A stretch of 64,000 bases of DNA from Fusobacterium necrogenes (lineage in GTDB: Bacteria > Fusobacteriota > Fusobacteriia > Fusobacteriales > Fusobacteriaceae). Location: positions 868,001 to 932,000 of the forward strand of contig NZ_UGGU01000003.1 in assembly GCF_900450765.1 (NCBI RefSeq), given 5' to 3'. The notes beneath the pieces are model-generated. The model had not been told where the DNA came from. It saw nothing but the letters and a program-made list of their open reading frames with translations, and made no database searches. Shown in pieces: positions 36,800-58,860 of this stretch. Numbering within the stretch: position 1 is the stretch's first letter; every line of letters begins with the position of its first letter. A program made the translations under genes and the position numbers.

Positions 36800-37540
36800 A
36801 AAATTATAACCCATACAAAATATTCCTATTTTTCTTGAAAACACTTCTTTTAGCACGCAATTTTAGAGTAACTATTTCTTCCTCGAAAATTAATAAAATG
36901 ATTTAAATATTATTGATATTTTTCTAAATAATCCATACATTTCTCAAAACATTTCTGTTCTTTAGACTTTCTATGTCCTCTTCCTTTTAAAGATTTAATA
37001 TTAAGATTAGATAAGTAAGAACAAATTTCTAAGAAATTTTTATAATTTTTATTAAAATCATTATTAAAATTTTCGATTAAAAGTTCTATTTTTTTATCTA
37101 ATCTTGAGCTATATTTTTCAATAGGATCTCTCCAAACAAAAAAATATCTGTTTGAATATGCTTCAATTTTAGTTCTATCGATATATAAAATATTCTCCAT
37201 CTCAAAAATTATTTAAACAAATCAGCGAGTAAATCACTAATTTTAATTAAAAATCTTGAAATAGTGAAGTAATCAGGGATTTTAGAATTCTGTAAAAGAA
37301 ATCGAAATTTGATATTTTCATGACACGTGAGTTCAATATCTCTAGTAGAATATATTACTCTAGAACACCCATAAAGAATGATAGCAAACATTTTAACAGG
37401 ATGCACCTTAATTTTACTTACAAAAGTTTAGTAAAATCCATATCCTCAAAAATGGTACTAAATTTTCTTACGGAGTCATCATTAGAAATTTGGTATTGTA
37501 AAAGCTTAAAAATTTTGGGTTGAATTAAATTAAAATACAT
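36800..37540 (-). pseudogene. IS1182-type transposase remnant, multiply frameshifted and truncated
   Basis: Fragments in successive minus-strand frames line up as one eroded transposase. An N-terminal piece from ATG 37540 (SNDDSVRKFSTIFEDMDF) is followed by a frameshift, then HPVKMFAIILYGCSRVIYST with KIPDYFTISRF (37209-37406). Another shift precedes ILYIDRTKIEAYSNRYFFVW and the GRGHRKSKEQ region (36910-37200). Beyond a stop are traces of RGRNSYSK and a terminal CMGYNF near 36800-36870. These motifs are characteristic of IS1182-family DDE transposases. The middle catalytic part is missing, so it is non-functional. AGTACT-containing AT-rich motifs at about 36764 and 37600 might mark element ends. 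Confidence 0.75.
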
Positions 37541-46523: not shown

Positions 46524-47579
46524 TTATTTTCCTTCTATAACATCTAAGAAATCATCAAATAGATAGTCAGAGTCTGCTGGTCCTGGCCAAGCCTCTGGGT
46601 GATATTGTACACACATAATTCTTAAATCTTTACTTCTCATTCCTTCGATAGAGTTATCATTTAAGTTGATATGAGTTACTTCCATAGCCTCAGGTACTCT
46701 ATCCACTACATATCCGTGGTTTTGAGAAGTTATAAAAATTTTATTTTTTATTAAGTCTTTAACTGGGTGATTACATCCTCTATGTCCATATTTTAATTTA
46801 GTAGTAGTTCCACCTAATGCCCAAGATAATAATTGGTGTCCTAAACAGATAGCAACTATTGGAAGTTTTCCTACCATTTTCTTAATCTCTTCAATTACAC
46901 CAGTTAAATCAGCTGGGTCTCCAGGTCCATTAGATAGGAATAATCCATCTAAATCATATTTCATTATCTCTTCAGCTGCTGTATTCCAAGGGAAAACCAC
47001 TAAGTGACAACCTCTTTTTGAGAAACTTCTTAGGATATTTCTTTTTATTCCAAAGTCCATTACTCCTATTCTTTTTCCCTCTCCAGGAATCTCATATATC
47101 TCTTTTGTACTTACTTGGCTTACAGCATCTTTATTGCTATATGCATTGAAACGCTCCCATATCTCTTTCTCAGTTAAGTCTTCAGCAGTGATTATAGCTC
47201 TCATTGCTCCCTCTTCTCTGATTATTTTTGTAAGTTGTCTTGTATCTACACCTTTAAATGCTACTACACTGTTTTGCCTTAAAAATCCATCTAATGTCAT
47301 TTCACATCTGAAGTTATTAGGAAGTTTAGCATCTTCTTTAATTACAAACCCTTTTAAATGGATTTTACTAGACTCCATATCCTCTAAGTTGATTCCATAG
47401 TTTCCTATCATTGGGTATGTCATTACTACAATTTGCCCACAGTATGATGGGTCAGTTAAAAGTTCTTGATAACCAGTCATTCCTGTATTGAATACTAATT
47501 CTCCAGTACACTCTCCTAACTCACCAAAAATTTTTCCTTCAAAACTCATACCATTTTCAAGAATAAGTTTTCCTCTCAC
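46524..47579 (-). CDS. carA: Carbamoyl-phosphate synthase, small (glutaminase) subunit
   Basis: A 351-aa class I glutamine amidotransferase delivering ammonia to CarB. The catalytic Cys lies in AICLGHQLLSWALGG, with the His/Glu pair in YHPEAWPGP near the C-terminus. The N-terminal CPSase domain starts LILENGMSFEGKIFG. The start is a GTG at 47579 with AGGAGG five bases upstream. It is preceded by a leader-peptide attenuator, described separately, which probably couples expression to pyrimidine supply. Confidence 0.97.
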   Translation of the reverse strand: MRGKLILENGMSFEGKIFGELGECTGELVFNTGMTGYQELLTDPSYCGQIVVMTYPMIGNYGINLEDMESSKIHLKGFVIKEDAKLPNNFRCEMTLDGFLRQNSVVAFKGVDTRQLTKIIREEGAMRAIITAEDLTEKEIWERFNAYSNKDAVSQVSTKEIYEIPGEGKRIGVMDFGIKRNILRSFSKRGCHLVVFPWNTAAEEIMKYDLDGLFLSNGPGDPADLTGVIEEIKKMVGKLPIVAICLGHQLLSWALGGTTTKLKYGHRGCNHPVKDLIKNKIFITSQNHGYVVDRVPEAMEVTHINLNDNSIEGMRSKDLRIMCVQYHPEAWPGPADSDYLFDDFLDVIEGK

Positions 47580-47618
47580 TTTAACCTCCTATAAATCCTA
47601 ATACTAAAATTTTTTCCC

Positions 47619-47653
47619 AAAAAAAATGATATAACTAAAAAGTCATATCATTT
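47619..47653 (-). terminator. Attenuator terminator in the carA leader
   Basis: On the minus strand AAATGATATGACT pairs with AGTTATATCATTT (13 bp, one G-U) around a TTTT loop and runs into a T8 tract. It stands between the promoter and carA, so transcription must pass it. The leader ORF stop codon (47635-47637) straddles the loop and 3' arm, so a ribosome finishing the leader would block hairpin formation. Confidence 0.85.
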
Positions 47654-47769
47654 CTAAAATAAAAATTAATAAATTTCAAAATAAGTTTATCTTTAAAAGA
47701 AAAATCGAATAAATTGTCAATAAGAAAAATTTTAAATTCTAAAATATGCCCAATCAACATCTTTCTCAT
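47635..47769 (-). CDS. carA leader peptide (44 codons), candidate pyrimidine attenuation peptide
   Basis: An ORF of 44 codons starting MRKMLIGHILEFKIF and ending RNDMTF. The ATG has GGAGGGAG three to five bases upstream, a stronger site than those of many genes here. It is rich in Phe, Ile and Leu encoded by U-rich codons (TTT, ATT, TTA). Its TAG stop lies inside the attenuator hairpin. Other short in-frame starts exist just upstream (10-16 codons) but end before the hairpin. The design matches E. coli pyrBI, where UTP-dependent polymerase pausing in U-rich leader DNA sets how closely the ribosome follows. Function is inferred from architecture, not homology. Confidence 0.75.
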   Translation of the reverse strand: MRKMLIGHILEFKIFLIDNLFDFSFKDKLILKFINFYFRNDMTF

Positions 47770-47813: not shown

Positions 47814-47842
47814 ATTATAACTTTTTTTTTATATTATGTCAA
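47814..47842 (-). promoter_or_regulatory. Consensus sigma-70 promoter of the carAB leader
   Basis: Perfect TTGACA (47837-47842) and TATAAT (47814-47819) with a 17-bp spacer on the minus strand. Predicted start near 47806, about 37 nt before the leader ATG and about 230 nt before carA. Confidence 0.85.
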
Positions 47843-57541: not shown

Positions 57542-58606
57542 TTAAATTTCCTTACCACAGTAATAACAGAATTTTCCATAATCTTTTACCACTACTTTAT
57601 TCTCTGTCTCTTCATAATGAGTTACACACTTAGGATTTTTACAAACAGTTAAGAAGTGTCCTTCAACTTCCTCTTTCTCCTCTTTTCTAGGAGCAGTGGA
57701 ATTTTTTAATCCTAGTGCTAAAACATACATAGCCTCTCTTGTAGGAACTCCATTTGCTGCTTGTTTAAAATATAGTGCATGCTTTGTATCATCTAAATCT
57801 ATATTTATCTCATCTACTCTTGGTAGTGGATGTAATATTATCATATGCTCTTGACACTTATTTAATATAGTATCCTTAGATATTTTGTAAACTCCACTTA
57901 CTTTATTATACTCCTCTATATCATCAAATCTTTCTCTTTGAATTCTTGTCATATAAAGTACATCTATCTCTTTTAATATTGGTTCATACTCAGAACAGAT
58001 ATGGTATTTCATTCCTTTTTCATCTAACTCTTTAGTGATGTACTCTGGTATTTGTATTGATTCTGGAGCTACGAAATAAAACTCTCCACCAAACATCTCT
58101 AATGCTTTAGTAAGAGAGTGTACAGTTCTTCCATATTTTAAATCTCCTACAAAAGCTATTTTAATATTTTCAATTCTTCCAATCTCTTTTTTTATTGTAA
58201 ATAAGTCTAAAAGAGTTTGACTAGGGTGTTCATTTGCTCCATCTCCAGCATTGATAACAGGATTTTTAGAAATTTCAGAAGCGAATTTTGCCGCTCCCTC
58301 TATATAGTGTCTCATAACTATTATATCAGAGTAAGCCTCTACCATTTTTATAGTATCTCTTAAAGACTCCCCTTTCTTTAATGAAGTAGCATCTGGAGAA
58401 TCAAATCCTAAAACTTGTGCTCCTAATCTATAAGCTGCTGATGTAAATGATAATCTTGTTCTTGTTGAAGGTTCAAAGAATAAACTTCCTACTATTTTCC
58501 CCTTTGCCAACTCTGCTTCTGATTTTTGTGAAAGTTCATTTGCTACTTCTAATACTTCTAATATCTCTTCTTTTGTTAAATCTTTAATAGATATGAAGTT
58601 TTTCAT
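57542..58606 (-). CDS. pyrB: Aspartate carbamoyltransferase with fused PyrI-type zinc module
   Basis: Condenses carbamoyl phosphate and aspartate. Catalytic-chain motifs: FFEPSTRTRLSF (44-55), HPSQTLLDLF and HPLPRVDEI. The family catalytic chain is ~305-310 aa; this protein has 354. The extra C-terminal tail (about 315-354) has Cys322-x4-Cys327 and Cys347-x2-Cys350 in a VCKNPKCVTHYEE...CYYCGKEI layout, very like the zinc-binding domain of the E. coli regulatory chain PyrI. The nucleotide-binding allosteric domain of PyrI is absent. It is first in the operon, behind a leader-peptide attenuator. Confidence 0.93.
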   Translation of the reverse strand: MKNFISIKDLTKEEILEVLEVANELSQKSEAELAKGKIVGSLFFEPSTRTRLSFTSAAYRLGAQVLGFDSPDATSLKKGESLRDTIKMVEAYSDIIVMRHYIEGAAKFASEISKNPVINAGDGANEHPSQTLLDLFTIKKEIGRIENIKIAFVGDLKYGRTVHSLTKALEMFGGEFYFVAPESIQIPEYITKELDEKGMKYHICSEYEPILKEIDVLYMTRIQRERFDDIEEYNKVSGVYKISKDTILNKCQEHMIILHPLPRVDEINIDLDDTKHALYFKQAANGVPTREAMYVLALGLKNSTAPRKEEKEEVEGHFLTVCKNPKCVTHYEETENKVVVKDYGKFCYYCGKEI

Positions 58607-58646: not shown

Positions 58647-58695
58647 AAAAAAAGGAATGAACTCTCCTTTAGATAAAGAGAGGTAACATTCCTTT
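58647..58695 (-). terminator. Attenuator terminator in the pyrB leader
   Basis: On the minus strand AAAGGAATG (58687-58695) pairs with CATTCCTTT (58651-58659), with an inner CTCTC/GAGAG stem, ending in a T7 run (58647-58653). The leader ORF stop codon (58669-58671) lies in the hairpin interior, so a terminating ribosome would prevent it from folding. pyrB starts about 40 nt further on. Confidence 0.85.
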
Positions 58696-58794
58696 CATTC
58701 TCTTAATAACTAAAAATTCTAAAAATATAAAATAGTCAGAAAATAGATAAAAAACAAAATAAATATGTTTTAATTTTTCAATAAAGTTTCTCAT
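58669..58794 (-). CDS. pyrB leader peptide (41 codons), candidate pyrimidine attenuation peptide
   Basis: An ORF of 41 codons beginning MRNFIEKLKHIYFVFYLF and ending GMLPLFI. GGGAGGA lies six bases before the ATG. It is very rich in Phe, Ile, Leu and Tyr (U-rich codons). Its TAA stop is inside the terminator hairpin. Architecture and spacing parallel the carA leader: promoter, strong ribosome binding site, U-rich 41-44 codon ORF, overlapping terminator. The peptides share little sequence, as expected if translation itself, not the product, is what matters. Confidence 0.78.
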   Translation of the reverse strand: MRNFIEKLKHIYFVFYLFSDYFIFLEFLVIKRMKGMLPLFI

Positions 58795-58831
58795 CTTTAT
58801 TCCTCCCTATCTTAGTAACTGTATCTTTATC

Positions 58832-58860
58832 ATCCTAACACAATTTTCATTTTTTTTCAA
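58832..58860 (-). promoter_or_regulatory. Promoter of the pyrB leader
   Basis: Minus-strand TTGAAA (58855-58860), 17-bp spacer, TAGGAT (58832-58837), about 30 bp before the leader's start codon. Confidence 0.65.

Follow-up and report, generated by a model that had tools for sequence, protein, structure and literature searches.

Enteric bacteria are known to regulate pyrimidine synthesis through leaders that couple transcription to translation, and a comparable arrangement is described here for Fusobacterium necrogenes. The stretch of DNA analysed, 64,000 nucleotides (nt) long and hereafter called the window (RefSeq assembly GCF_900450765.1, contig NZ_UGGU01000003.1, positions 868,001 to 932,000), carries ahead of the aspartate carbamoyltransferase gene pyrB a short leader open reading frame (ORF) whose stop codon lies inside an intrinsic terminator, and a leader of the same plan stands before carA. 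As judged from the sequence, the element very probably attenuates transcription in the manner of the Escherichia coli pyrBI leader, sensing uridine triphosphate (UTP) and depending on coupling. At E. coli pyrL, low UTP makes the polymerase pause, and the coupled ribosome blocks the hairpin (PMC10135430, PMC5021804). The principle is already known; its spread through the Fusobacteriota and into Brachyspira appears to be unreported. No report of pyr attenuation in either group was found in the literature searched, which did not include key reviews, and the main text of a Fusobacterium nucleatum transcriptome paper does not mention it (PMC11005410). Leader-peptide systems were, to the knowledge of Naville and Gautheret (2010; PMC2965389), unknown outside Proteobacteria and Actinobacteria before the hisS case in Firmicutes.

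The original prediction, made from the window alone, had proposed for pyrB a promoter, a Shine-Dalgarno (SD) site, a 41-codon ORF and a terminator holding the stop codon within its hairpin, and all of these were confirmed at their coordinates. The leader peptide of 41 amino acids reads MRNFIEKLKHIYFVFYLFSDYFIFLEFLVIKRMKGMLPLFI; the attenuator hairpin consists of an outer stem, AAAGGAATG/CATTCCTTT, and an 8-bp inner stem, with a folding energy of -19.3 kcal/mol, and its terminator is separated from the pyrB start (58606) by 43 nt. The promoter and the translation of this ORF are predictions, for which a TTGAAA-N17-TAGAAT site at the matching place in G021 and L140 (F. mortiferum) and the strong SD sequences (AAGGAGG type) of most relatives' leaders are relevant. 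The carA leader repeats the plan, with a promoter-like site, a short ORF encoding 44 amino acids (MRKMLIGHILEFKIFLIDNLFDFSFKDKLILKFINFYFRNDMTF) and a stop within a terminator hairpin. The two leaders had been said to share the same length and geometry; the layout is indeed alike, and the lengths are similar rather than equal (41 versus 44 codons). Neither peptide matched any Pfam family (up to E 10) or NCBIfam family, and the idea that a leader peptide might be a phage protein was rejected as the search gave no match.

A survey across the phylum indicates that this design is widespread. The pyrB and carA genes were located in 98 Fusobacteriota genomes and their upstream regions gathered, a leader being called where a terminator lay no more than 135 nt from the gene and an ORF with an SD site kept its frame open into the hairpin. 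Of 70 Fusobacteriota pyrB loci, 39 gave a call, as did 34 of the 49 carA loci and, in Brachyspira, 4 of 5 pyrB loci; all these counts are lower bounds, as the strict script overlooks A-U-rich carA hairpins, that of the window among them. The plan is visible by eye at several uncalled loci, among them the window carA and the pyrB genes of G023, G024 and G029. Could such leaders be chance short ORFs before plain terminators that merely end upstream transcription? Intergenic terminators are common, and T-rich, A-poor sequence contains fewer stop codons. An open frame in all 77 called leaders follows from the way they were called. However, when the ORF body is shuffled with dinucleotides preserved, only 2.83 of the 77 frames are expected to stay open, and each of the two remaining frames is open in 3 leaders. 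In 73 of the 77 leaders the stop codon falls within or past the hairpin, in the other four at the stem base, and pyrB leaders (Brachyspira included) stop in the loop or 3' arm in 34 of 43 cases. Within the window, a terminator-like element lies within 135 nt upstream of only 3 of 48 genes, and the only other ORF to pass the search is the end of an upstream gene, an undercount inasmuch as the script overlooked the carA leader. Together with the SD sites, the constraint on the reading frame, the movement of the leader with the head of the operon (both described below), the promoter-like site upstream of the ORF and the position of the terminator between ORF and pyrB, these figures make a chance origin extremely unlikely; the two matched loci had already been taken to speak against coincidence.

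What evolution has preserved in these leaders is instructive. The peptide sequence diverges beyond the genus level and between pyrB and carA leaders. The reading frame is constrained, the ratio of non-synonymous to synonymous polymorphism (pN/pS) being below 1 in 11 of the 13 groups where it was measurable. The hairpin shows covariation, with 7 of the 10 consensus pairs changing on both sides among 17 sequences, and an outer GGAAT/ATTCC pairing recurs from genus g1 to Brachyspira. A ligand-dependent arrest of the nascent peptide, as in TnaC, with a pyrimidine as the ligand, would accommodate a stop codon at a defined hairpin position. Arrest peptides, however, retain specific residues near the peptidyl-transferase centre, and a peptide conserved neither between genera nor between the two loci makes such a mechanism most improbable.

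Moreover, the RNA ahead of the hairpin is rich in U. Between 40 and 20 nt ahead of the stem, U accounts for 0.60 of the sequence in pyrB leaders and 0.59 in carA leaders, as against 24-35% in the pyrB leader bins upstream of 80 nt. Over the last 40 nt before the hairpin, the fraction is 0.576 in leaders and 0.340 ahead of ten terminators at gene ends (p = 1e-5, counting each locus once per genus), a comparison in which the controls all come from one window of one genome and the leaders from many genomes. The U-rich tract before the hairpin is the probable sensor, by way of UTP-dependent pausing; the original prediction named neither this sensor nor the pyrBI precedent in E. coli.

The abundance of Phe, Ile and Leu in the leader peptides might instead call to mind an amino-acid attenuator of the trp/his type, in which a ribosome stalled at scarce Phe, Ile, Leu or Tyr codons selects the antiterminator or the terminator. 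Pairing of upstream sequence with the 5' arm does not, however, exceed that in shuffles (mean z 0.20, with 1% below -2), and therefore no antiterminator is detectable. Further, no run of a single codon is conserved at a fixed place, the composition tracks U-rich codons, and the controlled genes are those of pyrimidine synthesis. An early stall with no antiterminator would leave the terminator free, such that starvation would switch the operon off. Amino-acid attenuation is thus very unlikely.

Control by PyrR, the regulator of pyr attenuators in many bacteria, was also considered, and the search of the genome that the original prediction had called for fits its proposal of a non-PyrR control. 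No PyrR protein was found in the source genome, and PyrR-binding RNA (RF00515) was found neither in the window nor in the genome, where the best score was 30 bits against a cut-off of 54. Among the 98 genomes, PyrR occurs in three (L137, L138, L139), all of genus g4 of the Fusobacteriaceae; their PyrB is of a different type, with 38-39% identity, and RF00515 adjoins pyrR in two of them (L138, L139). In this genus, PyrR appears to have replaced the leader attenuator. Such a role for PyrR, together with the RNA found in two of the three genomes, is what could be said for another RNA-binding protein, or a riboswitch, acting on the leader to control the terminator with the ORF as a secondary matter. 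On the other side, no Rfam family was matched in the window, the terminator is the only evident structure, primary sequence outside the hairpin differs between genera, and the whole-leader fold of the window pyrB leader is no better than shuffles (z -1.53; the carA leader of the window gives -2.66). A regulator of this kind is therefore improbable, and like amino-acid attenuation and peptide arrest it is less likely than UTP-dependent pausing. The comparative evidence supports the claim of leader-peptide attenuation at pyrB and carA in the absence of PyrR, with coupling as the part that we infer.

The location of the leader provides a further line of evidence. In the lineages with a carAB-pyrB arrangement (g7, g9, g14, g20 and g25), carA and pyrB lie on the same strand about 3.3-3.5 kb apart, with room for carB; here a pyrB leader was found in none of the 10 examined cases where carAB precedes pyrB, and a carA leader was present in 9 of 11. 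These distributions support the view that the leader tracks the first gene of the operon. Near-identical 60-codon leaders stand before pyrB in G089 (L059) and before carA in G090 (L134). No carA was found in G089, whose assembly is incomplete, and this suggests either that carAB was lost and the attenuator stayed in front of the first gene of the operon or that the assembly has a gap.

Since every sequence feature expected for the pyrBI mechanism is present and no antiterminator is detectable, UTP-dependent pausing with ribosome catch-up is the best explanation. A transcript starting at the predicted promoter would cross a short translated ORF and then the intrinsic terminator. With ample UTP, the polymerase would clear the U-rich tract ahead of the ribosome, and the hairpin would form and stop transcription before pyrB or carA. 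When UTP is scarce, RNA polymerase would pause in the tract, and the ribosome translating the leader could catch up and cover the 5' arm and loop, which it can occupy because the leader stop lies inside the hairpin; with no hairpin formed, the biosynthetic genes would be transcribed. The signal would then be the U-rich RNA and the position of the ribosome, not the peptide itself.

Several observations weigh against this explanation. About half of the loci were called automatically, and the rest rely on inspection. In the carA groups, the stop is frequently in the 5' arm, and the four leaders whose stop falls at the stem base or shortly ahead of it all belong to carA. In genera g12, g18, g19 and g21, pyrB has no visible leader (9 of 9 cases in g21), and PyrR is absent as well. 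The single-genome origin of the control terminators bears on the U enrichment, and U richness and hydrophobic codons are not fully separable. Finally, transcription is uncoupled in Bacillus subtilis, and coupling is not a given in a new phylum.

The occurrence of the leader in Brachyspira raises the question of its history. Brachyspira PyrB is 66-67% identical over its whole length to that of the window, which suggests a transfer of pyrB between the Fusobacteriota and Brachyspira. Two Brachyspira carA genes (L164, L165) have a strong terminator about 170-60 bases upstream, apparently entered by a 26-codon ORF, which is not U-rich and lacks a clear SD. Overall, we favour, on balance and less firmly than the mechanism itself, a picture in which UTP-sensing attenuation based on coupling is an ancient and general control of pyrimidine synthesis in the Fusobacteriota. 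On this view it would have no sequence relationship to enterobacterial pyrL, PyrR would have taken its place in one genus, and a transfer of pyrB would account for its presence in Brachyspira too.

The extent of the regulon was examined gene by gene at selected genes of the F. necrogenes genome and, as tested, comprises the pyrB operon and carAB. The wider regulon that had been hoped for did not emerge: the four PF00860 (xanthine/uracil-type) permease genes, upp, prs, apt, xpt and hpt are without such a leader, and the region upstream of pyrG has a bare terminator without an ORF. No such leader was seen at purF either, where the start used by the script was internal to the gene. The pyrG terminator (L162, about 70-20 bases before the gene) is a GGCGAA-T10-TTCGCC-like hairpin followed by T7, and recalls the pyrG attenuator of Firmicutes, which senses cytidine triphosphate (CTP). 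One of the four permease genes is preceded by a purine riboswitch (RF00167, 55.5 bits; L160:1271-1370, plus strand). Elsewhere in the window, a 60-codon ORF at 37209-37391 (minus strand) has a weak hairpin at its end and resembles, by eye, a transposase remnant.

The source genome is 2.0 Mb in size, and its PyrB shares 90% identity with the protein of Fusobacterium mortiferum An814. Its genes are ordered pyrB-pyrK-pyrD-pyrF-pyrC-pyrE, with carA-carB forming a separate operon; the identities of pyrB, carA and pyrE were checked by family search, and the names of the other operon genes were read from the sequence. The phosphoribosyltransferases present in the genome are hpt, pyrE, apt, prs, upp, purF, a comF-like gene and xpt, of which prs and purF were named from sequence. 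The C-terminal domain of PyrB (residues 321-354) resembles the zinc domain of PyrI (Pfam PyrI_C, 22.4 bits against a cut-off of 23.4), and the nucleotide-binding part of PyrI is absent. Both leaders and both operons lie on the minus strand of the window, and their features are collected in the table.

Table. Features of the pyrB and carA leaders and their genes in the window
Feature	Position	Strand	Description
Putative sigma-70 promoter of the pyrB operon	58832..58860	-	TTGAAA (58860-58855), 17-nt spacer, TAGGAT ending at 58832; TG before the second hexamer
SD site of the pyrB leader ORF	58801..58807	-	GGGAGGA, from sequence
pyrB leader ORF	58669..58794	-	41 codons, Phe/Ile/Leu/Tyr-rich; TAA stop (58671-58669) in the terminator loop
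U-rich tract, proposed UTP-dependent RNA polymerase pause region	58720..58760	-	sequence, and U enrichment across leaders
Intrinsic terminator (attenuator) of the pyrB leader	58647..58696	-	hairpin 58696-58650, dG -19.3; T run 58653-58647
pyrB, aspartate carbamoyltransferase fused to a PyrI-type zinc domain	57542..58606	-	first gene of its operon
Putative promoter of the carA leader	47814..47842	-	TTGACA-N17-TATAAT
carA leader ORF	47635..47769	-	44 codons; stop inside the terminator hairpin
Intrinsic terminator of the carA leader	47616..47653	-	hairpin 47653-47624, dG -12.3 kcal/mol, then T run
carA, carbamoyl-phosphate synthase small subunit	46524..47579	-	family search; carB follows at 46474-43268

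The pyrBI attenuator is a textbook case of polymerase-ribosome coupling and has been studied in enteric bacteria; a phylum-wide counterpart at pyrB and carAB, not recognisably related in sequence, would allow the generality of coupling to be tested independently. If UTP-sensing attenuation is indeed a general control in the Fusobacteriota, transcription and translation would be tightly coupled in this phylum. The replacement of the leader by PyrR would amount to a natural exchange experiment. The leaders also annotate a class of short, unlisted Fusobacterium ORFs, and they lead to a prediction of how commensal and opportunistic members of the genus tune pyrimidine synthesis under uracil scarcity, a regulatory response that we infer from the design of the leaders.

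It is useful to set these leaders beside the known systems. Like the trp/his attenuators, they place an intrinsic terminator after a translated leader ORF, and they differ from them in having no competing antiterminator and no run of regulatory codons. The PyrR attenuators of Firmicutes (RF00515) likewise place pyr genes under a terminator governed by pyrimidine status; they do so through a protein and binding loops that the source genome lacks. Control of carAB in E. coli consists of repressors and reiterative transcription (PMC6245113), whereas in the Fusobacteriota carAB carries the same leader device as pyrB. The closest likeness is to pyrL of the E. coli and Salmonella pyrBI operons, with pyrB as the downstream gene, an ORF of near 44 codons that runs into the hairpin, a U-rich tract before it and no need for an antiterminator. 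The leader peptides of the window, in contrast, belong to no Pfam or NCBIfam family. The position of the stop sets the two apart as well. In E. coli pyrL, the 44-codon ORF continues past the hairpin that the same terminator search identifies and ends 3 nt short of pyrB. Most pyrB leaders of the Fusobacteriota end within the loop or the 3' arm, though read-through forms occur in the phylum too, in G003, G015, G022 and several carA leaders.
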